From Verrucomicrobiota bacterium (GTDB lineage Bacteria > Verrucomicrobiota > Verrucomicrobiia > Limisphaerales > J093): DNA of 64,000 nt. Made by a program: the position numbers and the translations under genes. The stretch spans positions 1 to 64,000 of the forward strand of contig JAKQDD010000033.1 of NCBI GenBank assembly GCA_029556615.1, read 5' to 3'. This document shows positions 2,191 through 59,562 of this stretch, piece by piece. Each line of letters starts with the position of its first letter. Within the stretch, counting starts at the first letter, position 1. A model generated the notes under the pieces. That model saw only the letters and a list, made by a program, of their open reading frames with translations. It was not told the DNA's origin and made no database searches.

Positions 2191-3516
2191 TTACTCGCCT
2201 GAGACAAGCAGGACGCCGTGGCAGGAACGGAGCGGAACCGAGCAGGATCCATCCGGCAGTATTCTCACGGGGACGCGACCGTCGCCCCCGTAAGCCTTGG
2301 GGCCTGGCGCGCGGAAGATGACTTCGAACGAAGCTGGCTTCGCATCCTCGGGGTTGTCCGCCGCCGTTACGAAGAGCGCTCGCGCCGTGCAGGCGGGATC
2401 GCGCGCGGACATCTCACCCACGAGGAGCGGCGCGCCGTTCGCGGCGCGCACACCCTTGAAGAAGGCAGTGTCAAGCGCGTCGGGGCAGGATACCGGCTCC
2501 TTCGGGTTGCGCGACGACTCGCTCGGGAAGCCGACGAAGTGCGTGGCCGTGGATCTGAACTTCATGTACTCGGGCCCGAGGCGTTTCAGTTCGGCGTTGA
2601 CCTTCTTCAGCTTCGCATACTGCGCCGTCGGCATGCCCGCGGCGTCGAGCACATTGTTCGTCCACCAGCCCTTGCTCCAGCACGCCCAGGTGATCACCTC
2701 CGCGCCGAAGCTCATAGCGGCACAGGCCTGGAACCGCAGGCTGTTCTCGCTCGTCGGCGGCTGGTCCTCGCGCGAGTTCACTTGCGGAATGTACCAGAAT
2801 CCACGTCCGGTGCGGCGGCAGGCATCCGCCACCAGGATGAAGTTGTCGTAGCACTTCGAGAGGAACCTGTCTAAGCCCGCGGGCCCGACGTAGGGATAGA
2901 AGTCGTACGAGATGTAGTCCAGCGGCACGTGGCGGCAGTACTCGGCCACGTGCTCCGCGTAGGTCGTGGTGCCGAGCTGATTAACAGTCTGCTTGCCCGT
3001 GTTCTGGGCGACGCTCGCGTAGTTCGGATAGAGGTTCAGGTAGAGGGGCACGCCCGGCAGTTCGCGGTTCAATTGGGGCACGACCTCGCCGTAATACGGA
3101 AAGTCGAGCGCGGAAGGTTCGTCGCCGATGTCGACCGCCCAGATCGCCGGGTGGTCCTGCAGCGTGGCCGCGCCCTTCGAATAGACGTCGGGCGGATTCT
3201 TCTCGCGCAGCTTGCCGGCGTTCTCTCCGTCGCCGCCCCACCAGCCGGGCACAACTCCGTTGACAATTGCGCCCACACCGTGCTTCGCGAAGAGGTCGAG
3301 CGTGGAGCGGTCGTCGGCGCCCACGCCGACGATAAAGTCCACGCTGCACTCCCTGATCGCCTTCACGTGCGCTTCGGTACGCGCGTTCGCCTGCAGGCAG
3401 TACGCGCCGATGAGCAGTTTCGAACGGTCCATGCGCGGTGCCGCCGCGCAAACCGCGGAGGCCGCGTAAATGGCGGCCAGTGTGCAGGCGATGGTTCTCT
3501 GGACTGCATGTTTCAT
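2191..3516 (-). CDS. Secreted glycosidase-like (TIM-barrel-like) protein
   Basis: Signal peptide; AIWAVDIGDEPSALDFPYYGEVV and DYISYDFYPYVG segments typical of glycosidase-like folds. Confidence 0.5.
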   Translation of the reverse strand: MKHAVQRTIACTLAAIYAASAVCAAAPRMDRSKLLIGAYCLQANARTEAHVKAIRECSVDFIVGVGADDRSTLDLFAKHGVGAIVNGVVPGWWGGDGENAGKLREKNPPDVYSKGAATLQDHPAIWAVDIGDEPSALDFPYYGEVVPQLNRELPGVPLYLNLYPNYASVAQNTGKQTVNQLGTTTYAEHVAEYCRHVPLDYISYDFYPYVGPAGLDRFLSKCYDNFILVADACRRTGRGFWYIPQVNSREDQPPTSENSLRFQACAAMSFGAEVITWACWSKGWWTNNVLDAAGMPTAQYAKLKKVNAELKRLGPEYMKFRSTATHFVGFPSESSRNPKEPVSCPDALDTAFFKGVRAANGAPLLVGEMSARDPACTARALFVTAADNPEDAKPASFEVIFRAPGPKAYGGDGRVPVRILPDGSCSVPLRSCHGVLLVSGE

Positions 3517-3517
3517 T

Positions 3518-3540
3518 GGTCTGAGGCGCGCCTCGCTAGG
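3518..3540. repeat. Short derivative of the bipartite inverted-repeat element (GGTCTGAGGCGCGCCTCGCTAGG)
   Basis: Matches GGTCTGAGGCG(G)CGCCTCGCTAG at 53147-53170 and the complement at 25862-25884; directly upstream of the gene starting at 3516. Confidence 0.5.
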
Positions 3541-24237: not shown

Positions 24238-25848
24238 TCACTCGTCCCGTTGAGCCTTGCGTTCGGGACGATCTTCACGATCGTCATCCCCACCCCCATG
24301 TTGGCTGCCGCCGCGGCGTTCGCCGCCGCCACCTTGGCCTTGCGTGCGGTCGCCTTGGGGGCGCTTGCGATAGACATCAATGCCTTTCTCGGCGCGCTCG
24401 GTGATCGTGCCATTCGGTGTCAGGTCGCGACCTTTGAAGGCGGGATGATCGAGGGGATAGCGATAGGCACGGAAGGCGGAGTTCACCATCGGCAGGACGT
24501 CACCGAGTGTCTTCACCGGGCCGTCGCGCGTGACGGGGTTGATGTATTCCCAAGCCAACTCGCCCTTGGCCGTGATCTCGAAGAAATGGCCCTCGGTGTC
24601 GGAGCAGATGAAGGTGCTGCCGTTCGGCAGACGCTGGCCGCTGGAGCCAATGTGGCTGAAGAAACCGTGGCTGTTCACGGAACTGTAGCTCCAGATAACC
24701 TGCTTCGAAATCTGGCGCGGTTGGTTGTGCGTGTCTTTGTCGTAGGTTTCGCGACGGTAGCCGGCATCCGGCGGGTTGACATACTTGCCGGTGTCGCGCC
24801 CGCTCACGTCGAGGAACGGGTTGATCTCCAGAATCGAGGAACCCGGTGTGCGTTGGAAGAGGTACTGCCCATTGTTGAAGACCATGAGGTGCCCCGCCCC
24901 AGGCAGGCCGGGCCGGATCCAATGGACATCGTGCGCGCCGCCCATCTGTTTGTGACCGGAGGTGGCCGAGTCCCAGTTCTCCAGGACGCGCGGCGGGTCG
25001 CCCTGCGCGTAGCGGGCTGGGTCGCCGAAACGGTAGAGGAAATCGCCCGCGGGGCCGGCAGCCTTGGCGATGCTGGCCTTCGGGTCGCCGGCGACGAACG
25101 TGCCGTCGTGGTTCACCACGTAGAGTTCGCCTTGCACGGAGTTGATGACGATGTGGCCCGACTCCGGACTGTAATCGAGCGAATTGCAGTGGAGCCAATC
25201 GCGCCGGAGCGGCCGGCCCGGCAGGTTGATGTTGATGCGACCGGGATGGTCCGCAACGGTCTTGCCTGCACCGACATGGTTGGGCTTCGACGGGTCCAAG
25301 TCCTGGACGACGTGATCAAAGAAGCACCATTCCCAGACGACGTTGCCGTGCATGTCCACCTCGACGACCGCGTCCATCTGACCGCCCTCCTGCGAGGCTT
25401 TCTTCGGGTCGGCCCCAGCGGTGACGGCCTGGTCGTAAGAGACCGTCTTGTTGGCAATGTAAAGCGTGGTGGGGGCGTTGAGCTGCTTGTTGAAGATGCG
25501 CACCCAATCGTGATGCGGCGCGTAGTTCTCGCGCTTCTCGGTGTATTCCCAAACCGTCCTGCCGTCCCAATCCACTTCCTTGAAACCGGGGAAACCGCTC
25601 GGGTCATCCTTGGACGCATCGAGGATGTTGCCGTTGTCGAGCAAGTGCGGATTCGTGCCCACCGGCCACGTGTGGACGACCTTGCCGTCGAGGTCGAGGA
25701 GGAACGTGCGGTTTCCGACGCCGAAGAGCGTATAGCCAGCCAGAGCTTTGTTTGTGTCGCAGAACAGCAGCTCGGTCGGGCCTTGAAGCCGTTCGTAAGC
25801 ACAGGCCGAAGTGGCGATCAAACCACAGAGGATCAGCGCGCGTTTCAT
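24238..25848 (-). CDS. Aryl-sulfate sulfotransferase-like (ASST) protein A
   Basis: YTLFGVGNRTFLLDLDGKVVHTWPVGTNPHLLDNGNIL, APHHDWVRIFN; G/R-rich C-terminal tail. Confidence 0.85.
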   Translation of the reverse strand: MKRALILCGLIATSACAYERLQGPTELLFCDTNKALAGYTLFGVGNRTFLLDLDGKVVHTWPVGTNPHLLDNGNILDASKDDPSGFPGFKEVDWDGRTVWEYTEKRENYAPHHDWVRIFNKQLNAPTTLYIANKTVSYDQAVTAGADPKKASQEGGQMDAVVEVDMHGNVVWEWCFFDHVVQDLDPSKPNHVGAGKTVADHPGRININLPGRPLRRDWLHCNSLDYSPESGHIVINSVQGELYVVNHDGTFVAGDPKASIAKAAGPAGDFLYRFGDPARYAQGDPPRVLENWDSATSGHKQMGGAHDVHWIRPGLPGAGHLMVFNNGQYLFQRTPGSSILEINPFLDVSGRDTGKYVNPPDAGYRRETYDKDTHNQPRQISKQVIWSYSSVNSHGFFSHIGSSGQRLPNGSTFICSDTEGHFFEITAKGELAWEYINPVTRDGPVKTLGDVLPMVNSAFRAYRYPLDHPAFKGRDLTPNGTITERAEKGIDVYRKRPQGDRTQGQGGGGERRGGSQHGGGDDDREDRPERKAQRDE

Positions 25849-25862
25849 GGTCGTGTCTCCTC

Positions 25863-26041
25863 TAGCGAGGCGCCGCCTCAGACCTAACGAAGTCCGCGAT
25901 CCCATGAAGCCTTCCTGCCTCTTCGGACTCTCTCTCCCGCGCCTCGCTAACATAGAGTCCTCGGAGGCGGGGGGTCGGGTTTGGAACGGCAGGGGCCAAG
26001 TTTGTCCTGTTTGCCACATATTCCACAAGTCGAGGACTCTA
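25863..26041. repeat. Bipartite inverted-repeat element, copy A
   Basis: Unit 1: TAGCGAGGCGC 25863-25873 / GCGCCTCGCTA 25939-25949 (87 bp). Unit 2: TAGAGTCCTCG 25953-25963 / CGAGGACTCTA 26031-26041 (89 bp). Confidence 0.88.
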
Positions 26042-27730
26042 GCGTTGCGGTTGGCCGTCACGAGCGGGGCGGTTGCCACCTTGTCCACCTTGCCCGCCGC
26101 GACCCCCACCGCCGCCCGGGCCGCGGTCGGGGCGCTGCGCCTCGGTCATGAGGTGGAGGCCGGTCTTGCCCTTTTCCGAAGCTGGCAGTTCGATAACGCC
26201 TTTCGGGGTCAGGTCGCGCCCGGCCAGGCCGGGATATTCTGGCCCGTAGCGATGGGCTTTGAACACGGCGTTCCAGAGATGGCCGCGCATGTCTTTGCCC
26301 GGAAGCTCGCCTTGCGCGAGAATGCCGCCGCGCACCATCGGGTTCACGTATTGCCAGACCATTTCACCGTCAGGCGTAATCTCGAACAAGTGCCCGACAA
26401 CTCCGGCGCAGATGAGCGTGTTGCCGTTCGGCAGGCGTTGCGCGCCGGAGATTTCCGACGAGAAGAAGTCGGTGCGGTTCTCGGCCTCGTAGTGCCAGAT
26501 GGGTTTGGCGGGGCCATAGGCCTCGCCCGCTTCGAGGGTGTAGCGCCCATTCGCGTCCATCGGCAGCACGATTTCCTCAACGCTCGACCAACCCCGGTCG
26601 TAGCCGTTGTTGAAGATGGTCATGTGGCCCGCGCCGGGATACCCGTCGGGAATCCACAGGCCATCGTGCTGTTGCACGAGTTGCTTGTCACTCGCCTTGC
26701 CACGTCCATAGGCGGCAGGGTTTCCCCAGCGATAAATCAGGTCGCCGCCTTTGCCGTGCTTGCCGCCAGTGTGCCCCGCGGCTTCCTGGGTCGTGGTGCT
26801 GTGATCGATGATCCAGATCTCGTTGCAGCCCCGCACGCTCAGGGAGATCTGGTCGAGCGTGGCATGGTAATCGAGCGAGTTCATGTGGTTCCAAAAGGCA
26901 GCCGTGGCGCGGCCATTGCAGGCGACATCCACCAGCTCGGGATGCGCGGCGGGATCGCCGTAGTTCGGCTTCGTCTGATCGGTGTTCTGAATGAGGTGGT
27001 CCCACACGTGCCATTCCCAGACGATCTTGCCGCCTTTCGGATAGACCGGCTCGATCTCGACCACGGCGTCGGGCACCAGGAAATCGTCGCGGAGCATTCG
27101 GGGATCAAAGCCGGCCGCGATCGCCTCTTCGCGTGACTTGCGCTCGACCATGAGCGCGAGGATGTGGCCGTTGGGCATCGGCTTGAAATCATGGTGCAAC
27201 TGGTAGTCGCGGGTGGCGTGGTTGAACTCCCAAACCAGGTTGCCGTCCCAATCATATTCTTCAAGGCGTCCGCCCTCGCCGCCGCCCGTGCCGCCTTGCA
27301 CGCGCAACATGCAGGCGCGCACGAGATGTCCGTTCGGCAGCAGGTAGGCGGACTGGCCTGGCTCGTAAGCGCTCTTCCATTGGTGAACGACGCGGCCCTC
27401 GTTGTCCATAAGGTAGGTCACGGTGTTGTGCTTCGGCGCGAACAGCGTGTAGCCGGGGCAGGCCTTCGGGGTGTTCAGGAACAGGCCGATCGTCTGGCCC
27501 GGATTGGGCGAAGTCGGCGTCTTGTTCTCGGCCATCTCGCGGCGGCCACCGCCGCCCTCTCGGCCGCGGCCCGGACCAGATTCTTGGACACGGCCCCGGC
27601 CCTCGGGCCGAGAGGGTCGATCGTTGGGCTGTTCTTGTGCCACAGCCAATAGAGTGGCGCTCGCCACCGTCAGGAAGGCGAACAGGACCTTTGGCAAGGG
27701 CCGCTTCATTGCTTGGTATTTGTCGTTCAT
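26039..27730 (-). CDS. Aryl-sulfate sulfotransferase-like (ASST) protein B
   Basis: GLFLNTPKACPGYTLFAPKHNTVTYLMDNEGRVVHQWKS, HHDFKPMPNGHIL; R/G-rich tracts at both ends; stop codon lies in terminus of the repeat element. Confidence 0.85.
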   Translation of the reverse strand: MNDKYQAMKRPLPKVLFAFLTVASATLLAVAQEQPNDRPSRPEGRGRVQESGPGRGREGGGGRREMAENKTPTSPNPGQTIGLFLNTPKACPGYTLFAPKHNTVTYLMDNEGRVVHQWKSAYEPGQSAYLLPNGHLVRACMLRVQGGTGGGEGGRLEEYDWDGNLVWEFNHATRDYQLHHDFKPMPNGHILALMVERKSREEAIAAGFDPRMLRDDFLVPDAVVEIEPVYPKGGKIVWEWHVWDHLIQNTDQTKPNYGDPAAHPELVDVACNGRATAAFWNHMNSLDYHATLDQISLSVRGCNEIWIIDHSTTTQEAAGHTGGKHGKGGDLIYRWGNPAAYGRGKASDKQLVQQHDGLWIPDGYPGAGHMTIFNNGYDRGWSSVEEIVLPMDANGRYTLEAGEAYGPAKPIWHYEAENRTDFFSSEISGAQRLPNGNTLICAGVVGHLFEITPDGEMVWQYVNPMVRGGILAQGELPGKDMRGHLWNAVFKAHRYGPEYPGLAGRDLTPKGVIELPASEKGKTGLHLMTEAQRPDRGPGGGGGRGGQGGQGGNRPARDGQPQR

Positions 27731-29089: not shown

Positions 29090-32000
29090 TCAAGGCAACT
29101 GAACTACCCGGTAAAACCCTTGCGGCTGGGCGAGCCGCGTTGTGTTGCTTTCTATGAACGAGGTTAGTGGGCCGACGCTGCGGTTGGTGGCGATGCTGGC
29201 CCAGGCGGCGGTGGTGAGGCTGGGCGTGTATTGCACGACGTAACTGCGATTGGGCACGCTGGCCCATGTCATCTCCGCCGCGGTTGAGTCGACGGACATT
29301 GTCGTAACGAGCAGAGTCTGATCCACCGGAAGCTCGATGGTGCCTCGAGGGATCAGGTCTTTGCCCAGCAGGCCGGCGTAGCTGGCGGGGTAGCGGCGGA
29401 CTTTGAAGACGGCATTGTATTGGTGGCCGCGGTCATCCAACCCCGGAGTCTCGCCTTGGGTCAGCGGACCCGTTTGCACAACGGGGCACACATAGCGCCA
29501 GACAATTTCAGCCGCGGCGGTGACTTCGGTGAGAATGCCGTGAACACCATCGCACATGAGGGTGTTGCCGTTGGGCAATCGCTGCGCGCCGGAGATCGCC
29601 TCCGAATACATGCTGGAAGGGGGTGTCGCCGCGTAGGTCCAAGTGAGCACGGTCGGGCCGAAAGCCGATCCGGAGGCGATGGAGTAAAGTCCATCCGTCC
29701 GCAGGGGCGGAGTGATTTCGTCCACGGTCGAATAGTTGCGGCCAATCCCGTTGTTGAAGATGATCAGATTCCCAGCACCGGGGCAGTCAGGATCAATCCA
29801 CTGTGCGTCGTGTTGATCGAAGAGCAGCTGACTGGCGGCGGTGCCGAGGCCGTAATTCACGGGATTGCCCCAGCGATAGAGGAGATCGCCGCCCTTGCCT
29901 CGCGTTCCGCCCGTGTGACCGGCGGCTTGGGCGGTTGTGGTGCCGTGGTCAATCACCCACAGTTCGCTGCTGCCGCGAACGCTCAGGACGATCTGATCCA
30001 ACTCGGGGTTGTAGGCGATCGAGTTCATGTGGTTCCAAAAGGGCATGATGCCATGGGCGCTTTCCACCCAGCCATTCACGTTCACCCGTTCAGGATGTTC
30101 CGAAACCACGCCGTAGTTGTTCCGGGCCGGATCGAAGTCCTGGATCAAGTGATCCCACACATGCCATTCCCACACGACGATTCCGCCTTGAGGACGGGTG
30201 GGCTGCACCTCCACGACTGAATCGGGCAGCAGGTAGCCCTTGCCCGCAACGTCGGGATGCAGGAGGGCCGGATTGAAGCCTGCCGCCAGCACCTCGGCGT
30301 AAGATTTCGTCTCGACGACCAGCATCAACACGTTGCCATTGGGGAGCGGCGTAACGTCGTGATGCGACATGTGGGTGGCCGTGGCGTAGTCCAGCTCCCA
30401 CACGAGGTTGCCGTCCCAATCGTATTCCTCCAGCCGGCCGCCCTCGCCGCCGCCCGTCAAGGCGCCGCTCTTCACGAAGCCGCAGCGGAGCAGATGGCCG
30501 TTGGTGAGCAGGTAGGCCGACTGGCCAGGCTCGTAGCGACTGGTCCAGCGGTTCACCACCTCGCCCGCATTGTCGATGAGGTAGGTGTTGGTGTGATGTT
30601 TGGGCGCCATGAGCGTGTACCCCGGAAAGGCCCGAACGTCGTTGGTGAACAGTCCGACCGTCTGAACCAGGTTCGCCGGCGCGCTCGCCACCGTATAGGA
30701 GCGAGTGTTCCCGGGTGCGCCGATCGGGTCGGTGGTGACCATGCCCGCGCTATCCGAGGCCGTCAGGTAGTAGTTCACCGTGGTGCCGACCGACTGTGCG
30801 GGGATTGGCGCGCCGTAGGTGCCGTCGCCTGCGCTGCCATCGTGGTGGGTGCCATCGTCCAGCATGGGAACCGTGGTCGAAACGCTGCCGCTGGTGACCA
30901 CCTTGACCGTGATTTGATCGAGATCGATGCGACTCTCGGTGCTGCCTCCGCGGAACTGGAAGCGCATCTTGAGCGTGCTGATCAACTCGCCGGGCTGCAG
31001 GTCATAGTGGTATTGCCGCCAGGCGTGATTGGTGCTGGTCAGTTCGCTCAAGCGCGTCACGTAGCCGGTGCCCGGATCGAGTTGGAAGGTCCAACCGGCA
31101 TTGCCATACTGATTGCTAAGGGTCAGCGTCTGCAGCCAGAACTCCACAAGTCCCGAACTGCCCCGCGCGTCGATGGCACTCGAGGTGGTCACCATGCTGT
31201 CGGTCAGGTTCGTCGTGCCGCCTTTGAATTCCATGCCGTTGGTGTTGCCGGGGCCGTAGTTCGCCTGGCCGCGTTGCTCCAACGGGCTATTCGCGCCCGC
31301 CGACGTCACCGTCCAGGCGTTGTTGCAGTTGCCGCCCGTCCACGGTTTGCTGCTGGTGGTCGCCATTGTTTCCGAGAACGCGCTATGGGTTTCGCCTGGC
31401 CCGCCGCCTGTGCCAGTGCTGTAGGTCAAAGCGACCAGGGCCACGTTCGCGTCATCGGTGACCCCAGCGGTCACCCAGACGGGATCGGCTGCCGTCGGCG
31501 ACGCGGGGGTGATGGCGGTGTTCGCGATCACTGGGGGTTGATTCGTCGTGGCGCCCGGGTGGGTCGCGCCTTGCACGCGCATCCGGAGGGAGTAGAGCGA
31601 CCCGGCCTCCGTGGTGATGAACAGGGTCTTTCGATCGCTGCCGCCGAATTCCAGATTCGTTGGTCGCTCCGGCAGGGTGATGTGCTCGACCTGATTGCCG
31701 GCGGAGTCATAGACCAACACGGCGTTCTCGCAGCAATAGAGGTTGCCCTCGGCGTCCAGCGTCATGCCATCGCACTTGACCGGGGCGAACAGCGTCGGGT
31801 CGGTCAGGCTGCCGTCGTCGTTGATGCGGTACCGGAACACGTTCGCGGTGCCCCAATCAGCAAGATAGAGCGTCTTGCCATCCGGCGTGCCGACGAGGCC
31901 GTTGGGCCGCACCGTGTCCCCCACGACGCGCAGCACCGCGCTCCCATCCGGCTGGAGGTAATAGACGTATTCCCCGCCCTGCACGGCCGTGTGCCCGAAA

Positions 32001-35000
32001 TAGACCGGGTCGGTGAAGTAGACGCCACCGGCCGGATCCACCCAGAGATCGTTGGGTTCGTTGAAGCGGAGGCCGCCGTAGGTGCTCGCCAGAACCGTGA
32101 CGCTGCCTTGCGGTGTGATGGACGTGATGCGGCCGTTGTCCCCTTCACAGGCCAGCAGGTTGCCGGATGCGTCGAAGGAGAGGCCATTCGCACCGCCGGC
32201 GTTCGTCCGGAAGACGGAAAGCTGATTGGACACAGACCACTGGTAGATCGTGTCGGAGGGGATGTCCGAGAACAACACATTGCCTGCCGCGTCGGCTGCC
32301 GGGCCTTCGGTGAAATGCAAACCGGCAGCGAGCTGCGTGAGCGTGGCGCCCGGGGCCACTACGCTGGCTGCGCCACGCCGCATCACGCGGAAGCCCATGT
32401 GGAACCACGGGCCGTTCGGGTCGCCCGGACCGCGGTAGTAGGAGGGATTACGGTTGGCGACACGGCCGTGGCCATAGAACTCCTGGCCGTTGAACCAGTT
32501 GCCCCCGCGCAAACCACGATAGGCATGGCCGTCGGGCATGGGATCGCCCGCGGCCGGCCCCGGCGGGTTGGTGACCACGTTGTTGGCCACACAGGACTGA
32601 TAGTAATCCTTGGCGTACCAATCGTTCACCCATTCCCAGACGTTGCCGGACATGTCGTAAAGCCCGAAGCCGTTCGCATTATTGCGGGTCTGGTAGGTGT
32701 CATTCGTGCCTGGCCAGCCGAACTCGGCTTGGGCACGGAGTTGGCCGTTGTAGAATCCGACCGGCGTGGTCCAAGGATAAGGACCGGTCGCGTAAGGATT
32801 CGATGTGCCAGCCCAGTTCGCCAGGGTCCCGTCGGCGTTCGTATCGCTGCCCCAGGGGAACGTGCCGTAAGGGCTGTAAAGGCCGCCGCGGGCGGCGTAT
32901 TCCCATTCCGCTTCGGTCGGGAGGCGGTACCCGTTCCTGGACAGGTCGCAGTCGCCGTTGGCCAGGTTGTAGCAGGGCGCATAGCCATCGCGCGCGCTGG
33001 CCCAGTTGCAGTAGGCGATCGCCCCGAACCAACGCACGCCCGTGATCGGATGGAGGTCACGCTGGTCGCGGATGGTGAAGGCGCTTCCACTCCATTGCAC
33101 GCGGCTGTTTGTGTCCGAACCGTAGGTGTCGCAGTAGATGTTCGCGCCGCCGGCGCCATAGACGTGGTTCGACCGGACCTCGATCAAGCTCTGCGCCAGT
33201 GCCGAGTTGAGGAACTGGACGTATTCTTGACAGGTCAGCAAGGTCGTCTCCATCTCGAACGCGGCCACGTAGACGCTATGAACCGGGACTTCATCGCTCG
33301 GATGCTGGGGATCGGTGAACCCGTCATGATCGCCCATCTCGAATTGCCCGGCGGGGATGTGGGCGAACTGCGGCGTGAACGAATGGGTCGGCGGAAGGTC
33401 GTTGGTGACACCGCCGCGCACGCAGCGCACCCAGAAGTTCGTGGCCTTGCTGTCGTAACCCACGATGCCAAGCTGGAAGTCCACATACCAGGCGCGGTGG
33501 GTGCCGTTGATTTCCGTCGTGGACGACCAGTAGCGGGCCGGCTTGGCGGCGGGGAAGAAATTCGTGTCCACGCTCGGGCTGGTGCAGGTTTCGTCGTTCA
33601 GCGACTGGAGTTCCTTGATGTTCGGCAGCCGCCAGTCCGCGCGGCCGGCCAGGGAGAGGCTTTCGGCATAGTCCAGGGCACTTTCCCAAGACGCTGCGCT
33701 CGCAACCTCGGTCTGCTGCCAGGTCAAGCCGGTGTCCCGGTCCGTCACGGTGCCGTCGCCGTTGCCGACGAAGTCGTGCATCGGCTGACGCGCCGGGGCC
33801 GGCGCCCCGCGCACGCAGCGGACGTGGAACCGTTTCGTCCCCCCGGCGCCGAGGGTCTCGGTCTTCGGATGCGGGCCAATGCCGCCGCCCGCATTGGCCG
33901 CCCAGACCCGATTGGAATCGGTGGGCTGGACGTCGGCGGTCCACCAGTACTGCGCCCCGGTTGCGGTGAAGGCGTTGGTGTCCAAGGCCGGGTTGACCGC
34001 GCCGTGATTGAGGATGCTGAACAGTTCGTGCGCGGTGGGCAGGCGCCAATCGCTTTGTCCTCCCAGCACGAGCGCGTCGGCGTAGGTCGCCGCGCTCTCC
34101 CACGTCATCTCGCCGCCGTCGGCCTGTTGCCAGATGAGGCCGGTCACGTTGTCGGTGACCGTTCCATCGCCGCTCTCCGTGAACGAGGGTGGGTGGAGCG
34201 TGTAGTCGGAATCCTCACCCAGCGCGGCGGTGTAGCTCTGCGTCTGGCCGGTGTCCGGGAGATTCAACATGCTCCAATCCCCAGAGGGCGGAACGTTCGT
34301 GCCCGTAACGATGACCGTGAACCATTGCGCCGTGAAGAGGCTCGGCACGCCGTTGTCGGAGACGCTGACCAGGAAGTCGTTGGTGGTGCCAGCGTCTGCC
34401 GCCGTTGCGGTCCAGGTGACGAGCCCGTTGGTCACGTTGATCGTGGCCGTCGCGGGTGCCAAAGGGAGTTCGAAGCTGAGCCATTGCGGTGGCGCCTCTG
34501 CGTCGCTGGCGGCAGCCGCAACCACCAGGGAGTCACCCGCGTTGAGGGTGCGGTCGGACAGCGGTGCCAACACCGGCGCGGTGTTGGCGATCACCCATGC
34601 CTTGAAGCTGTTCGTCGCGCGCATGGGCGGTGTGCCGCTGTCCGTCGCAATCACGGTGAGCGTCGGCGTCGAGCCGAACTGGGCGAGCGTCGGGCTGAAG
34701 GTGAGGATGCCGTTGCTCGGGTTGATGGATGCGTTGGCCGGCGGATTCAGGAGGCCGAACACGACGGACTGGGTGGGCACGTCGACATCGTGAGCGACGT
34801 TGGTCACCAGCAAGGTGTAGCCAGGCGCAACGGTGCGGTCGATCTGCGCTTCCAGGGTTGGCGGCGTGTTCCCCAGGGTGGTCTGGACGGTGTAGGAGTA
34901 CGCCGCGGCCGGCGCGGCGCTGGGATCGCTGGCCGCGTTGCCGAAGTCGTCCTGCGCGGTCACGGAGTAGCCGACGGTTGTGCCCTCGGGGAAAGCCGGG

Positions 35001-36694
35001 ATGGCGCCGCCATAGCGACCATCTCCCGCCGCGCCGTCCTGCTGCGCCCCATCGTCGAGCATCGTCACGGCGTTCGTGCTGCCCGCCGCGATGTAGGTCA
35101 GGGTCACTTGCGCCACGGCCCGGCTGTTGGTCACCGTGCTCGTGACCCAGACGCTGTTTGTGGCGTTCGGTGCGGCCGGCGAGTGCGTGGTGCCGCTGAT
35201 CGTGGGCGCGGACACATACGAGGGCGTCCGGCCCGTGATGGTGTCCAGCGGAACCAACGTGCGCCCCGTCAGCGCCGGATCGTTCGTGCCGATGCGGAAA
35301 GCCCGGAAAACGGAGTTGACCATCGGCCAGTTGTCCCGCTTGTATTTGAGCATGCCGGCGGAGGTCACCGGGCTGACGTATTCCCACACGACTTCGCCGC
35401 TGGAGGTGACCTCGAAGATGTGGCCCTCGGTGTCCGCGCATATCAGCGTGTTGCCGTTCGGCAGCCGCTGCGCGCTGGAGCCGATGTGGCTGAAGCAAGC
35501 CTGGTTGGCTTTTGAGAAGTACATCCAGGTCACCTGCCGCGAGAGGTTCTTGGTCTGCTTGTGGGTGTCCTTGTTCGGTGACGCCCAACTGATGTAGCCG
35601 GCCGTCGGCGGATTCACATAGCTGCCGGTGTCGTTGGTGCCGGCGTTCAAGTAGCCGTTGATCTGGAACATGTACGATTGCGGCGTGCGCTCGAACAGAT
35701 ACTGGCCATTGTTGAACACCAGGAATTGTCCGGCCCCGGGCGAGCCGGCGGGAATCCAGCTCACGTGATGCGAGCCGCCAATCTGCTTGTGACCGGTCGT
35801 GGAGGACGTCCAGTCCTCCAACACCGACGGCGGGTCGCCCTGTTCGTAGCGGGCGGGATCGCCGAAGCGGTAGAGAAAGTCCCCGGCGGGCGAAGCGGCC
35901 AGCGCCAGGCCGGCGGTCGGATCGCCGGCGACAAAGGTGTTCCCGTGGTCAATCACGTAGAACTCGCCCTGCACCGAGTTGATGACGATCTGGTCGAGCG
36001 CCTGGTTGTAGTCGATCGAGTTGCAGTGCAGCCAGTCGCGCCGTAGCGGTCGACCCGGAAGGTTGAGATTGAGGCGGCCGGGCGCGTCGGAAATGGAGGT
36101 GACGTAGTTGGCCTTGGTGGGGTCGAAATCCTGAACGACATGGTCGAAGAAATTCCACTCCCAGATGACATTGCCGGCCATGTCCACCTCGACGACGGCA
36201 TCCATTTGCGCGCCGGTGTAGGGGCCGTTGGCCGGGTCGCAACCCGCGGCGATGGCCTGTTCGTGGGTGATGGTCTTGTTGGCGATGTAGAGCGTGGTGA
36301 AGGCGTTGAGCTTCGGGTTGAAGATGCGGACGAAATCGTGGTGCGGGGCGTAGTTGGTGCGCGTCTCCGTGTATTGCCAGACGATGTTGCCACTCCAGTC
36401 CACTTCGGTGAAACCGCTGAAGCCGCTGGGATCGTCTTTTGAGGTGTCGAGCACGTTGCCGTTGGTGAGCAGGTGCGGGTTCGTGCCGAGGGGCCACGTG
36501 TGCACCACCCGCCCCTCCATGTCCAGCAAGTAGGTCGTGCCCCGCGCCCCAAACCATGTGTAGCCGGGATAGGCCCCGGCCTTGTCCCAGTAAAGCAATT
36601 CGGTTGGGCCTTGCAGGGATTCGTACGCGAAGAGAGACGACGCCGCGAAGACCGCGAGTAGTCCCGAATGGAAGCGGGCTGAGGTTGTTCTCAT
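29090..36694 (-). CDS. Giant secreted multidomain protein (2534 aa): ASST - Ig/cadherin-like - DUF1566 x2 - SUMF1 - SMP-30/gluconolactonase-like - ASST - C-terminal beta domain
   Basis: Single uninterrupted ORF with signal peptide; domains recognised by motif, see findings for approximate boundaries. Confidence 0.9.
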   Translation of the reverse strand: MRTTSARFHSGLLAVFAASSLFAYESLQGPTELLYWDKAGAYPGYTWFGARGTTYLLDMEGRVVHTWPLGTNPHLLTNGNVLDTSKDDPSGFSGFTEVDWSGNIVWQYTETRTNYAPHHDFVRIFNPKLNAFTTLYIANKTITHEQAIAAGCDPANGPYTGAQMDAVVEVDMAGNVIWEWNFFDHVVQDFDPTKANYVTSISDAPGRLNLNLPGRPLRRDWLHCNSIDYNQALDQIVINSVQGEFYVIDHGNTFVAGDPTAGLALAASPAGDFLYRFGDPARYEQGDPPSVLEDWTSSTTGHKQIGGSHHVSWIPAGSPGAGQFLVFNNGQYLFERTPQSYMFQINGYLNAGTNDTGSYVNPPTAGYISWASPNKDTHKQTKNLSRQVTWMYFSKANQACFSHIGSSAQRLPNGNTLICADTEGHIFEVTSSGEVVWEYVSPVTSAGMLKYKRDNWPMVNSVFRAFRIGTNDPALTGRTLVPLDTITGRTPSYVSAPTISGTTHSPAAPNATNSVWVTSTVTNSRAVAQVTLTYIAAGSTNAVTMLDDGAQQDGAAGDGRYGGAIPAFPEGTTVGYSVTAQDDFGNAASDPSAAPAAAYSYTVQTTLGNTPPTLEAQIDRTVAPGYTLLVTNVAHDVDVPTQSVVFGLLNPPANASINPSNGILTFSPTLAQFGSTPTLTVIATDSGTPPMRATNSFKAWVIANTAPVLAPLSDRTLNAGDSLVVAAAASDAEAPPQWLSFELPLAPATATINVTNGLVTWTATAADAGTTNDFLVSVSDNGVPSLFTAQWFTVIVTGTNVPPSGDWSMLNLPDTGQTQSYTAALGEDSDYTLHPPSFTESGDGTVTDNVTGLIWQQADGGEMTWESAATYADALVLGGQSDWRLPTAHELFSILNHGAVNPALDTNAFTATGAQYWWTADVQPTDSNRVWAANAGGGIGPHPKTETLGAGGTKRFHVRCVRGAPAPARQPMHDFVGNGDGTVTDRDTGLTWQQTEVASAASWESALDYAESLSLAGRADWRLPNIKELQSLNDETCTSPSVDTNFFPAAKPARYWSSTTEINGTHRAWYVDFQLGIVGYDSKATNFWVRCVRGGVTNDLPPTHSFTPQFAHIPAGQFEMGDHDGFTDPQHPSDEVPVHSVYVAAFEMETTLLTCQEYVQFLNSALAQSLIEVRSNHVYGAGGANIYCDTYGSDTNSRVQWSGSAFTIRDQRDLHPITGVRWFGAIAYCNWASARDGYAPCYNLANGDCDLSRNGYRLPTEAEWEYAARGGLYSPYGTFPWGSDTNADGTLANWAGTSNPYATGPYPWTTPVGFYNGQLRAQAEFGWPGTNDTYQTRNNANGFGLYDMSGNVWEWVNDWYAKDYYQSCVANNVVTNPPGPAAGDPMPDGHAYRGLRGGNWFNGQEFYGHGRVANRNPSYYRGPGDPNGPWFHMGFRVMRRGAASVVAPGATLTQLAAGLHFTEGPAADAAGNVLFSDIPSDTIYQWSVSNQLSVFRTNAGGANGLSFDASGNLLACEGDNGRITSITPQGSVTVLASTYGGLRFNEPNDLWVDPAGGVYFTDPVYFGHTAVQGGEYVYYLQPDGSAVLRVVGDTVRPNGLVGTPDGKTLYLADWGTANVFRYRINDDGSLTDPTLFAPVKCDGMTLDAEGNLYCCENAVLVYDSAGNQVEHITLPERPTNLEFGGSDRKTLFITTEAGSLYSLRMRVQGATHPGATTNQPPVIANTAITPASPTAADPVWVTAGVTDDANVALVALTYSTGTGGGPGETHSAFSETMATTSSKPWTGGNCNNAWTVTSAGANSPLEQRGQANYGPGNTNGMEFKGGTTNLTDSMVTTSSAIDARGSSGLVEFWLQTLTLSNQYGNAGWTFQLDPGTGYVTRLSELTSTNHAWRQYHYDLQPGELISTLKMRFQFRGGSTESRIDLDQITVKVVTSGSVSTTVPMLDDGTHHDGSAGDGTYGAPIPAQSVGTTVNYYLTASDSAGMVTTDPIGAPGNTRSYTVASAPANLVQTVGLFTNDVRAFPGYTLMAPKHHTNTYLIDNAGEVVNRWTSRYEPGQSAYLLTNGHLLRCGFVKSGALTGGGEGGRLEEYDWDGNLVWELDYATATHMSHHDVTPLPNGNVLMLVVETKSYAEVLAAGFNPALLHPDVAGKGYLLPDSVVEVQPTRPQGGIVVWEWHVWDHLIQDFDPARNNYGVVSEHPERVNVNGWVESAHGIMPFWNHMNSIAYNPELDQIVLSVRGSSELWVIDHGTTTAQAAGHTGGTRGKGGDLLYRWGNPVNYGLGTAASQLLFDQHDAQWIDPDCPGAGNLIIFNNGIGRNYSTVDEITPPLRTDGLYSIASGSAFGPTVLTWTYAATPPSSMYSEAISGAQRLPNGNTLMCDGVHGILTEVTAAAEIVWRYVCPVVQTGPLTQGETPGLDDRGHQYNAVFKVRRYPASYAGLLGKDLIPRGTIELPVDQTLLVTTMSVDSTAAEMTWASVPNRSYVVQYTPSLTTAAWASIATNRSVGPLTSFIESNTTRLAQPQGFYRVVQLP

Positions 36695-47427: not shown

Positions 47428-49965
47428 TCATTCTTTCCAAGCCAGAATCTCCGTCACGCCGCTGCGCGCCTTGTCTTGGTGAGCAAACACCACTCGGAAC
47501 TTCGTCGTGGTTACCTTGGGAAAACAAACTGCGTTCACCGCGCTGCCGGCCGGCTTCGCCGGAGACTTGGTTTGATCCCGCACGTCCTTCCATTCGAGGC
47601 CAGTCCAGGATTGCACGGTGTAGGAAGCCGGCGGTTGCACGCCGCCGTGATCATCGTAGAGACAAAGCTCGATGCGGCCGATTTCCTTGGGCTCGCCGAA
47701 GTCCACCTCCAGCCAGTCGGTCGCGTTGGTGGAGCCGTAGGAAGTCCAGCGGTTCACGGGATTGGGGCGATACACGGTGCGTCCGTCGTTCGCGAGGCGC
47801 GGCACGCCCCCAAAGACATCGTGAAACGACGCGCTCGCCTTGGGAAAGCCCTGGCCGCGCTGATTCAAAGCCAGGTTGCCCGCCGGCGGTGGAGCAACCT
47901 GAAACGCACCGGCCAGTTGGCCCCACGCCTCCAACTCGGTCAGCCCGGTGCGCCCGCCCTTGCCGTGGGTGAAGACCACGCGAAGCTGCTGCACGCCGAG
48001 GGTGGGAAAGCTCACGACATTGGCGCGGTGACCGGTCGGCTGCGCGGGCGCACGCCTCTGCCCGGGCACGGCGGCCCAAGCCTGGCCGTTCCAATGCTCC
48101 ACCGCGTAGCTCTCCGGCGCGACGACGTTCTCGCCGTCGTCGAGGAAATAGAGCTTCACGTTGTCGAGCGGCCGAGCAACGCCCAAGTCCAATTCCAGCG
48201 AGTCGGTGGCGCGGGGCGAGCCTTCGGTGGTCCAGCGATTGGGCGGGTGGAGATGATACCAGTAATTGCCGTCGTTGAGCCGCGCCAACGGGGTCCGCTC
48301 GTTGGTAAAGGAAGCCTTGACCTGCGGAAAGTGGTCCCCGTCGTTGTTCACGAGGTAGTTCACCTCGGGTTTGCGCACCGGAGCCGGGGCGCCGACAGGC
48401 AGCTTGGCAGTCAGCACACCCAGCGTGGCCGAGGACGCCACGTGCTTGCCATCCACCAGCAGGCGAAGTCCCTTCCCCAGGCCGTAACGCGTGCCGTCCT
48501 TGTCCCACACCACGCTGACGCGGCGACCGTGGTAGGGAAGATCATCAAGCGCGAACCACGGCCAGTCCGTCGGCGCCAGCGGGTCCACTTCGAGAACATC
48601 ATCCGCGCGCGGCTTCACGCCGATCAGGCCCGTGATGATGAGGTCGTTGAAGCCGCTGTGGAAATAGTGCTCGCTGTGATTGTAGCCGTCATGCCCTTCC
48701 CAGGAGCCGGTGTCCGGATGCGCGGCCTCGGCAATGTAGGGCTTGCCTTGTTTGCGGTGCGTCAGCGCATAGAGGCGCAGGAGCCGATAGTAGTCGGCGC
48801 GAGAGATCACGCCCTGGCGATAGTTCTGGAGCACGTTCGCCAGCGCCTTGAGCGTCTGCGTGGTGGCATAGGGCCACGACTGGCCGCTCCACCAGCAGCA
48901 GGATTTCATAAGCAGGAACATCGGATCGTGGCGGCCGACGAAGCTCGGGCCGAAGGGCGCGAGGAAGTAGTTCGTGTCCATGAGGAATTTCCACGCCGCC
49001 TCGTAGCCCGGATCGGGCAGGTTGAACTGCCACGGCACGTAGCCGATCAACTCGCGCCCCTCCGGGCTGCCGGCGAAGGGACCATCTTCGTAAATCAGCG
49101 TCCCAGCCTTGATCGGTTTGCCGGGGTAATCCTTCTCGTTCGACTCGTTGTTCTTGAACCGGATGAGGAAGAACTCGCGCTCGGGATCCCAGAGCATGGC
49201 CTGCAACGTCGCCTTCAAAGCGTCCGCCTTGGCGCGGTATTTCTCGGCGTTGGCCTTGTCGCCGGCGAGATCGGCGATGCGCGTGATGGCCTGGGCGTCG
49301 GCCCACATGTAAGCGTTGAAGGAGGGCCGGTAGCTGGGCGCGCCGCGGAGGATGTCGCGCGTCTGCCGGCTGGCGATGTTGAATTCCATGCCGTCGTCGT
49401 GGCCGATTTGCCAGAACATGCCCATCTCGGGAACGAACATCCGCTGCTCCCAGCCTTCGAAGTTCTTGATGAGATCAGCGAGCAGGTCCTTGGTGAACGC
49501 CTCGTCGGGATGGGCCAGATGGACGGCCCACACAGAATCCGCCAGCCAGGTGCTGTAGTTGCGCGGCTGCGCCCCGGGCGTGCGCAGCCAGTAACGGCTG
49601 TAGTCGCGGGCGTAGCGTGGATCGCGCAGCCAGCGCACCTCGTAAAGCTGATGCCCCGCCGGACAGCTGATCGCGCCGTACGCGCCGGACCAGAACGGTC
49701 GGTCGATGAACTCGGTGTACGAATAGCCGCTGGTCGGCGAGCCGTAAGTCAGATGCTTGGTCGTCAGTTCCCAGCGGTAGTAGTAGGTGGTGGTGATCTC
49801 CGTGTCCGGGCATTCGAAGAACGGAATGTTGGCCTTGTACCAATCCCAGTCCCGATTATCCCAGAAGGTCTGGACGTCAAGCTGGGCCTGCTTGTCGAGC
49901 AGGGCGGCGCTCGCAGGGGCGAGAGAGGCCGACAGGGCGAGAAGTGAGACAAGCAGGCGTTTCAT
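47428..49965 (-). CDS. Six-hairpin glycosidase-like enzyme with two discoidin-like (F5/8 C) domains
   Basis: Signal peptide; MWADAQAITRIADLAGD, WPYATTQTLKALANVL; two RWTxxGSxxATDWLEVDFG..-type repeats. Confidence 0.75.
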   Translation of the reverse strand: MKRLLVSLLALSASLAPASAALLDKQAQLDVQTFWDNRDWDWYKANIPFFECPDTEITTTYYYRWELTTKHLTYGSPTSGYSYTEFIDRPFWSGAYGAISCPAGHQLYEVRWLRDPRYARDYSRYWLRTPGAQPRNYSTWLADSVWAVHLAHPDEAFTKDLLADLIKNFEGWEQRMFVPEMGMFWQIGHDDGMEFNIASRQTRDILRGAPSYRPSFNAYMWADAQAITRIADLAGDKANAEKYRAKADALKATLQAMLWDPEREFFLIRFKNNESNEKDYPGKPIKAGTLIYEDGPFAGSPEGRELIGYVPWQFNLPDPGYEAAWKFLMDTNYFLAPFGPSFVGRHDPMFLLMKSCCWWSGQSWPYATTQTLKALANVLQNYRQGVISRADYYRLLRLYALTHRKQGKPYIAEAAHPDTGSWEGHDGYNHSEHYFHSGFNDLIITGLIGVKPRADDVLEVDPLAPTDWPWFALDDLPYHGRRVSVVWDKDGTRYGLGKGLRLLVDGKHVASSATLGVLTAKLPVGAPAPVRKPEVNYLVNNDGDHFPQVKASFTNERTPLARLNDGNYWYHLHPPNRWTTEGSPRATDSLELDLGVARPLDNVKLYFLDDGENVVAPESYAVEHWNGQAWAAVPGQRRAPAQPTGHRANVVSFPTLGVQQLRVVFTHGKGGRTGLTELEAWGQLAGAFQVAPPPAGNLALNQRGQGFPKASASFHDVFGGVPRLANDGRTVYRPNPVNRWTSYGSTNATDWLEVDFGEPKEIGRIELCLYDDHGGVQPPASYTVQSWTGLEWKDVRDQTKSPAKPAGSAVNAVCFPKVTTTKFRVVFAHQDKARSGVTEILAWKE

Positions 49966-52990: not shown

Positions 52991-53169
52991 TAGAGTCCTC
53001 GACTTGTGGAATATGGGGTCAACAGGGCAAGTTTGGCCCCTGCGGTTCCAGGCCATCCCTCCTTCCGTCGAGGACTCTACATTAGCGAGGCGCGGAAGAG
53101 AGGGTCCGGAAAGGCAGGGAGGCTTCATGGGATCGCGGACTTCGTTAGGTCTGAGGCGGCGCCTCGCTA
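52991..53169. repeat. Bipartite inverted-repeat element, copy B (inverted relative to copy A)
   Basis: TAGAGTCCTCG 52991-53001 / CGAGGACTCTA 53069-53079; TAGCGAGGCGC 53083-53093 / GCGCCTCGCTA 53159-53169; unit lengths identical to copy A. Confidence 0.88.
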
Positions 53170-58557: not shown

Positions 58558-59442
58558 TCAGAAATCAACTTCGATGCGGGTCTCGAACACGCTGAGGTGG
58601 CCTTCGGGAGAGCGACCGCTGACGTCGGCGAAGAGGCCGTGCCGCCAGGTCGCCCGCCCGTCCAAGACCGGTCGGCCGATTTGCAGCCCGGCATTCACCC
58701 CCGGAGCCAGGGCCTGCAGCGCCGCTGCCGGTTCCATGAATGGGATGTCGCGGCTGCTGGTAATCACGTCCAGACCCATCGGCGCCTGGTATTGGCCGGC
58801 GCGAAGTTCGCCAATCAGCGGGATGTCCCGAAACGACAGGTAACTCTCCTCAATATAGAACTGATTGGGAATGTAGCCGACCTCCAGTTGGTAAGAGACC
58901 GGCAAGACCAGCAGACAGTCACCCTTGGCATAGAGACGCGCGCGCCGCAACTCGACGCCCGCATCGAAGCCGCGAAACTCGTTGCCGGTGACAAACGCGG
59001 CCCCGTCGAGCGCGAACTTGGCGCCGACCTTCCCGCTCATTTTCAGTTCTTCGAGATGGAAGACGGGCGAGGCGTTGGTCCCGGCCACCCGCGCGCGAAC
59101 CTCCGCCCACGGATCCGCAAGTTGCGTCTTGCGCGAGAGCCCGAGGTGCAGCCCGTCCCAGCCCGCCCACGAGGATCGCCATTCGAATGACGAGGTCTTG
59201 GGGATGGCAGCGCTGGCCGCGGCGAGTTCAGGCGCCACATGGGTGTGCACCGTGATGCACGCCTGCTGTGTGAGCGGCTGAGGGTTCTCCTGAGCCGGCG
59301 CCACGGCGCGGGCCGGTTCCGGTTCCGTGCCGACTTGGGGCTGGGCCGCCAGGAGGCATGGCTGCGACACCGCCTCGCCGCAGAAAACGAGAAAGAGGGC
59401 CAGCGAGGCGCGCCTCAGACGAATCCCACTCGTCAGCCTCAT
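58558..59442 (-). CDS. Phosphate-selective-porin-like outer membrane protein, short
   Basis: GAKFALDGAAF..FRGFDAGVELRRARLYAKG, LSFRDIPLIGELRAGQYQAPMGLDVITSSRDIPFME; C-terminal ...FETRIEVDF. Confidence 0.65.
   Translation of the reverse strand: MRLTSGIRLRRASLALFLVFCGEAVSQPCLLAAQPQVGTEPEPARAVAPAQENPQPLTQQACITVHTHVAPELAAASAAIPKTSSFEWRSSWAGWDGLHLGLSRKTQLADPWAEVRARVAGTNASPVFHLEELKMSGKVGAKFALDGAAFVTGNEFRGFDAGVELRRARLYAKGDCLLVLPVSYQLEVGYIPNQFYIEESYLSFRDIPLIGELRAGQYQAPMGLDVITSSRDIPFMEPAAALQALAPGVNAGLQIGRPVLDGRATWRHGLFADVSGRSPEGHLSVFETRIEVDF
59400..59420. repeat. Short derivative of the bipartite inverted-repeat element inside the porin signal-peptide codons
   Basis: CCAGCGAGGCGCGCCTCAGAC, close to CTAGCGAGGCGCGCCTCAGAC at 3519-3539 (complement). 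Confidence 0.4.
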
Positions 59443-59562
59443 GAATCGGTTCAATGTCTCGCCTCGGTTTCCTCCCGCCCCCCCGGCCTGCGTGCCAACC
59501 TCTGGGGGGATTCCCGTGTTGCGATCCTCCAGGACCGTGAGCCCGAGAGGCTCGAGCGAATC

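Follow-up and report, generated by a model that had tools for sequence, protein, structure and literature searches.

Two repeats of 179 bp in a 64,000-nucleotide stretch of a verrucomicrobial genome (the window) belong to a family of mobile elements with hundreds of copies in the host genome and with ends that recur in several bacterial phyla. That these repeats are mobile elements is nearly certain, because dispersed copies lie at one short target, paralogous sites lack the element, copies form arrays, and lineage-specific interiors lie between constant ends. Probably, each is a gene-less transposable element of ~180 bp with two unlike hairpin ends, moved in trans, which inserts at CTAG with duplication of TA by the action of a DDE transposase resembling those of the IS630/Tc1-mariner family.

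Two-part anatomy and copy number

The initial annotation described two copies in opposite orientation, each built of units of 87 and 89 bp with 3 bp between them, and both are present as described, copy A at 25863-26041 (+) and copy B at 52991-53169 (-). In copy A, unit 1 (25863..25949, +; profile match E 1e-22) is the left-end stem-loop and opens with the motif TAGCGAGGCGCCGCCTCAGACC (25863..25884, +), the part that pattern scans with a reversed control found to be kept across phyla. The spacer ACA follows (25950..25952, +), and then the right-end stem-loop, unit 2 (25953..26041, +), which is delineated by the sequence, a profile match and stem covariation, and whose last three bases, CTA, are the TAG stop of the adjacent ORF on the - strand. 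Copy B, all on the - strand, has unit 1 at 53083..53169, a spacer that reads ATG in element orientation at 53080..53082, and unit 2 at 52991..53079, with profile matches to both units. Two fragments of unit 1 that keep the left end and have lost the 3′ side lie at 3489..3538 (-; E 1e-6) and 59402..59459 (+; E 5e-8). As annotated, both copies have perfect terminal inverted repeats, each of 11 bp (TAGCGAGGCGC/GCGCCTCGCTA and TAGAGTCCTCG/CGAGGACTCTA), and the ~94% identity given for unit 1, with a lower value for unit 2, agrees with the 94.3% and 80.9% that we measured between copies A and B. Each 11-bp inverted pair belongs to a single unit; matching between the outer ends of the composite is limited to TAG/CTA.

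Copy A lies between two arylsulfotransferase-like genes (both Pfam PF05935, - strand). The stop codon of one (26039..27535, ORF end at 26039) is the element's terminal TAG, and the likely start of the other (24238..25848) is 14 bp from the element's left end. Elsewhere in the window (29090-36694, -), a gene adjoined by separate genes of related kinds encodes a 2534-aa protein that joins arylsulfotransferase-like, Lcl C-terminal, FGE-sulfatase and SMP-30 domains.

The host genome is a metagenome assembly of 7.2 Mb in 260 contigs with 7.45% contamination. A search of it returned 539 first-look candidates, and scoring 40 of these gave 44 matches. We then built profile models of units 1 and 2 and ran them on 2.2 Mb of the 7.2 Mb, which contained 149 full composites (~68 per Mb). 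Extrapolation puts the genome-wide number of full copies at about 500, an approximate figure because the 2.2-Mb sample includes contigs picked for strong matches. These counts exclude a history of two copies only, derived from one segmental duplication.

Nearly all full copies were 177–182 bp long, and throughout the 2.2 Mb the order and strand of the units were fixed: left unit, a spacer usually of 3 bp, right unit. The exact 3-mer spacers were ATG (45), ACG (8), ACA (6) and ATA (5). Interiors fell into at least three types for unit 1 and several for unit 2, which combined freely. Whether the units also occur apart, a question raised by the initial annotation, has a qualified answer: unit 1 occurred alone about eight times and unit 2 two or three times, full-length and with C/TA..TA/G flanks, and otherwise the two were usually together. 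The usual mobile unit is thus the composite, with solo units a minority, and the proposal that each unit is a MITE of its own does not hold, the units corresponding instead to left and right ends that match across genera. Left-end-only fragments were common in the host genome, many copies were cut short, and interiors were mosaic. Short fusions and head-to-tail arrays were also present, in which adjacent copies share one CTAG.

Two kinds of irregular copy stood out. At C12:47455-47489 and 47478-47559, the left end runs both ways from a GAGGCGCGCCTC palindrome in an apparent head-to-head fusion. At C100:91725, C214:77036 and C255:70734, the right end is mutated to CTCCA, and the element's last ~16 bp (..CACGTCGAGGACTCTA) then appear once more, as if the polymerase had slipped back.

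Insertion at CTAG and at stop codons

The base immediately outside the left end was C in 112 of 126 cases, and the one outside the right end was G in 103 of 126. Of all tetramers in 1.8 Mb of the host genome, CTAG is the most strongly depleted (observed/expected 0.34), and element ends account for 236 of its 475 occurrences there. The empty sites that the initial annotation suggested looking for were found as element-free paralogous sequence at three places: one in a palindromic repeat family with at least seven empty copies, and two within a region present in duplicate (C83 versus C148). At these sites the flanks were separated by 2, 2 and 3 nt, and the third gap became 2 when we realigned the sequences ourselves. 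The empty dinucleotide was TA at none of the three; by our own reading, each site is one substitution away from the predicted C-TN-G, a difference easily accommodated by how far the paralogues have diverged. A second line of evidence came from copies with an end dinucleotide other than TA. Most of these were not matched at the opposite end, and yet the two ends agreed in 6 copies versus 1.9 expected (p = 0.004, permutation, host genome), whereas sets from other genomes, with few cases, gave no clear correlation. Because the empty-site spacing and the matched non-TA dinucleotides both fit it, a 2-bp TA duplication is supported, although not proven. A 4-bp duplication of CTAG was rejected, as the inner right base stayed C in 13 of the 14 copies in which the outer left base was not C. 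The TA-targeted, IS630/mariner-like mobile element that the initial annotation had considered thus gained support as to mobility and target, from the C/TA...TA/G flanks of ~500 copies, the three empty sites and the dinucleotide statistic; the IS630/mariner part of it is probable.

Two other modes of movement bear on the same junctions. In single-strand HUH transposition (IS200/IS605- or RAYT-like), the hairpins would be ends recognized as folded DNA, CTAG would be the left target tetranucleotide, and the right end would have a CTAG cleavage site of its own, with no true duplication. The spacing at the empty sites, taken alone, also fits this mode, against which stands the finding that matched end dinucleotides agree directly and not complementarily. 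Site-specific recombination at a 2-bp TA core, by an IS607-like serine, a tyrosine or a bridge-RNA recombinase, would leave the shared core as TA at both junctions without staggered cuts, and is compatible with the unlike ends, the 2-bp identity at both junctions and the matched non-TA dinucleotides. We nevertheless regard it as distinctly improbable: a very limited search found no such enzyme with these ends, and TnpB, which normally accompanies IS607 and IS605, went undetected in 12 of the 14 genomes with the element.

The host genome has other dispersed repeats as well. A second palindromic family (CGGCTCAACCTCCTGGGCTTGACCAGGCGCCTTGAGCCGCCCAGTCCGGGG) is found at C177:3325-3498, C12:264557-264612 and ~25 other places in the host genome, and one of its copies carries the element within its loop. 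Other dispersed modules repeatedly adjoin the element, CGCCTTTTCCCAGACTGCGCTGGG at its right and GACAACATGTTGG..GACAAGGGGC and ..ACCCATTTGAGGGACACCACAC at its left (C12:182355-182562, C177:25-144, C255:30-149, C100:136050-136094 and C227:92-129). Several of these modules are at contig ends and may be parts of longer unassembled repeats.

With a simple gene caller (1202 genes, 85% coding), only 2 of 130 elements fell inside a called gene. Genes ended facing an element in 132 cases. In 68 of these the gene stopped exactly at the terminal TAG of the element, and in only about five did it run into the element in another frame. Frame analysis found no continuation of the frame of stop-sharing genes beyond the element and so gave no support to the idea that insertion had truncated them. 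Thymidylate synthase (ThyA) is full length at the element, its final residue (264 of 264) aligning with the C-terminal residue of homologues of solved structure. Phytoene desaturase (CrtI), a sugar kinase and a RibD-type reductase likewise extend there to the end of their family profiles or close to it. The full-length neighbouring proteins and the frame analysis together indicate that the element sits on native stop codons. Another 52 genes called in the same sequence end in C-TAG without an element, which puts the occupied share of these stops at about one half. In Ca. Thiosymbion, within 400 kb, the element's TAG was the stop at 5 of 28 gene 3′ ends that face a copy. Selection against insertions within genes could produce the same positions.

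The location of copies at gene ends, the good folding of both units on both strands and compensatory changes of stem pairs across genera would also suit a dispersed regulatory or structured-RNA repeat (terminator-like, mRNA-stabilizing or a small RNA) kept for its function there, and a paired structured-RNA repeat had been one suggestion of the initial annotation. This suggestion fared poorly, and we consider it highly improbable. The elements had no orientation preference relative to genes, the four neighbour arrangements numbering 35, 32, 29 and 29; the window contained no Rfam match, and five loci gave only sub-threshold chance matches; interiors are unrelated between lineages, and within the host genome they are mosaic and many copies truncated; and the CTAG positions and empty sites indicate insertion.

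Conserved ends and changing interiors across phyla

The left-end motif, CTAGCGAGGC-NNN-GCCTCAGACC, is often present at high copy number in genomes of several phyla. Its exact pattern occurs in at least 69 stretches of public genomes, and the matches listed came from Verrucomicrobiota, Planctomycetota (including Brocadiaceae), Acidobacteria, deltaproteobacteria and purple-sulfur gammaproteobacteria, although some of the single ones will be chance. When two mismatches were allowed, 26 of these genomes contained between 0 and 436 copies, with the highest counts in Ca. Thiosymbion (436), a deltaproteobacterial MAG (139) and Thiohalocapsa sp. ML1 (137), whereas a reversed-pattern control gave 0 in 25 of the 26 genomes and 1 in the remaining one. 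Within Verrucomicrobiota the distribution is patchy, the left end being present at one mismatch in 3 of 289 sampled genomes, including the host genome. Plasmids and phages yielded no DNA match to the element, and a pattern scan of IMG/VR was likewise empty.

Across phyla, the right end, AACTTGACYY..TTCAAGGANTCTAG, often lies 100–250 bp past the left end; many left ends are followed after ~100–250 bp by AACTTGACTCATTTG.. or AACTTGACCTG.. and then by a terminal CAAGGANTC(C)TAG. The sequence between the two ends is lineage-specific, unrelated between lineages, and often itself a long hairpin. It is mainly because left and right ends recur paired across genera that we read units 1 and 2 as the two ends, left and right respectively, of a single element. 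Closer to the host, one genome of its family (L044) shares identical element sequence with a named Verrucomicrobia MAG (L205), which links the host genome to Verrucomicrobiota. In two genomes from a second genus of that family, the composite is present with both arms of its right-end stem altered, from GAGTCCTCG/CGAGGACTC to GAATCCTTG/CAAGGATTC. In an alignment of 18 right ends, 95.1% of stem cells were paired, and compensatory change affected three pairs and 13 cells, a cell count reached in 0 of 500 shuffles. Such covariation favours HUH transposition, as do two unlike hairpin ends in place of inverted repeats; it is expected of a hairpin and equally of two matched arms bound by one protein. 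The left-end stem, GAGGC/GCCTC, points the other way, since its sequence is the same in different phyla and showed no compensatory change, a pattern that double-strand recognition would predict.

Along a 400-kb contig of Ca. Thiosymbion (L287-L306), 48 left ends were found, and about one in two comes directly after the right end of another copy, in two- and three-unit arrays; the elements form two size classes with different right ends. Orientations on this contig are evenly mixed (24 + and 24 -), which also counts against HUH transposition.

Mode of movement and comparison with known systems

Since the element has no genes, its movement would have to be in trans. According to the transposon reading that we favour, a putative trans-supplied transposase would recognize the left and right ends, and insertion into the palindrome CTAG would duplicate TA. 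The element proper would start with G and end with C, so that each junction would again read CTAG, and a target gene with a TAG stop would keep its stop codon on either side. With the stop retained, insertion would be almost harmless and copies would accumulate, making stop preservation a plausible cause of the high copy number. Because the ends of the element are themselves CTAG, new copies would land beside old ones and form arrays. The predicted junction in excised circles or scars is CTCTAGCGAGG.

No transposase with these ends was found in the window, in agreement with the initial annotation, or in the host genome or the loci of its relatives. The sole full IS630-type gene of the host genome has, by our own reading of the sequence, ends that differ from those of the element, and no IS630-type locus in the host genome and its relatives carries the element's ends. 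IS630-type DDE_3 was undetected in 2 of 13 element-bearing genomes (MAGs). At the cross-phylum loci, no left end was accompanied by its own right end at a gene-sized distance, and the genes between directly repeated copies were ordinary ones, with no transposase recognizable by eye.

Both ends of the element flanked none of 20 Y1-transposase loci in the host genome and its relatives and none of 30 across six element-rich genomes, and the RAYT-like gene of the host adjoins repeats of its own (GGGGTCACATCT). We therefore consider HUH transposition unlikely, even though single units, composites and head-to-tail arrays recall the singletons, dimers and clusters of REPs, and GTAG REPs often provide the TAG stops of flanking ORFs (PMC3733652). 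The RAYT-like gene (G000:C78, L075) encodes a tyrosine transposase of 352 aa and, with its flanking repeats, resembles published TIRtrons; in two genomes of a related genus, long homologues of the protein adjoin similar GGGG(T/G)CACATCT repeats.

DDE transposases of the IS630/Tc1-mariner family normally need inverted-repeat ends, and because the two ends of the composite are unlike, a simple IS630 MITE is disfavoured. In other respects the element is like the IS630/Tc1-mariner MITEs (RUP, Correia/NEMIS): both are short and gene-less, with hundreds of intergenic copies and TA ends. Both also have terminal inverted repeats, which here belong to the single units, and share a target, as IS630-family elements transpose into TA with TA duplication and IS630 is described as preferring CTAG (PMC2170065, citing Tenzen and Ohtsubo 1991). 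The whole element differs in having two unlike hairpin ends rather than one inverted-repeat pair, and no autonomous relative with the same ends was found here. MITEPsy1 of Pseudomonas syringae, an IS5-type element of ~100 bp, is also gene-less and inserts at CTAG or YTAA, but it duplicates 4 bp, which is not seen here, and has matched 18-bp inverted repeats (PMC3189936).

GTAG REPs and REP dimers, which are associated with RAYT and occur in Verrucomicrobia too, are like the element in their hairpins, their singletons, dimers and arrays, their intergenic sites and a terminal TAG that often serves as a stop (PMC3733652). Because the stop-codon habit is common to GTAG REPs, it is not decisive. 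REPs are 20–40 bp with GTAG, whereas the units here are 87–89 bp and the tag, CTAG, is at the outer ends; the dimer here necessarily pairs a left with a right unit, has end motifs shared across phyla and shows a signal of 2-bp duplication; and its ends were found on no Y1 gene. Non-autonomous IS200/IS605 elements of the PATE type have unlike palindromic left and right ends and no genes. The element shares with this type its unlike hairpin ends and insertion 3′ of a fixed short target, and differs from it in that no partner transposase with the element's ends was found and that a short direct duplication has evidence here.

We also entertain, more tentatively, an unnamed family of small elements spanning several phyla, with two unlike conserved ends and free interiors, living on CTAG and rebuilding TAG stops on both sides, whose enzyme would lie outside both the inverted-repeat DDE and the RAYT patterns. 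The family appears to have no description in the sources searched: within the open-access literature, our search by end sequences and element traits found none.

If the transposon reading is right, the two end sequences have been preserved as a pair in different phyla even as all of the sequence between them was replaced, and the preserved ends would imply one conserved recognition machine, which is now searchable. Hundreds of copies would have been reached by a simple and cheap route, through a rare palindrome, one that often serves as a stop codon, with that stop restored on both sides. In its host genomes the element, which is not annotated in Rfam, will have effects on gene calling, on the annotation of repeats and on assembly.
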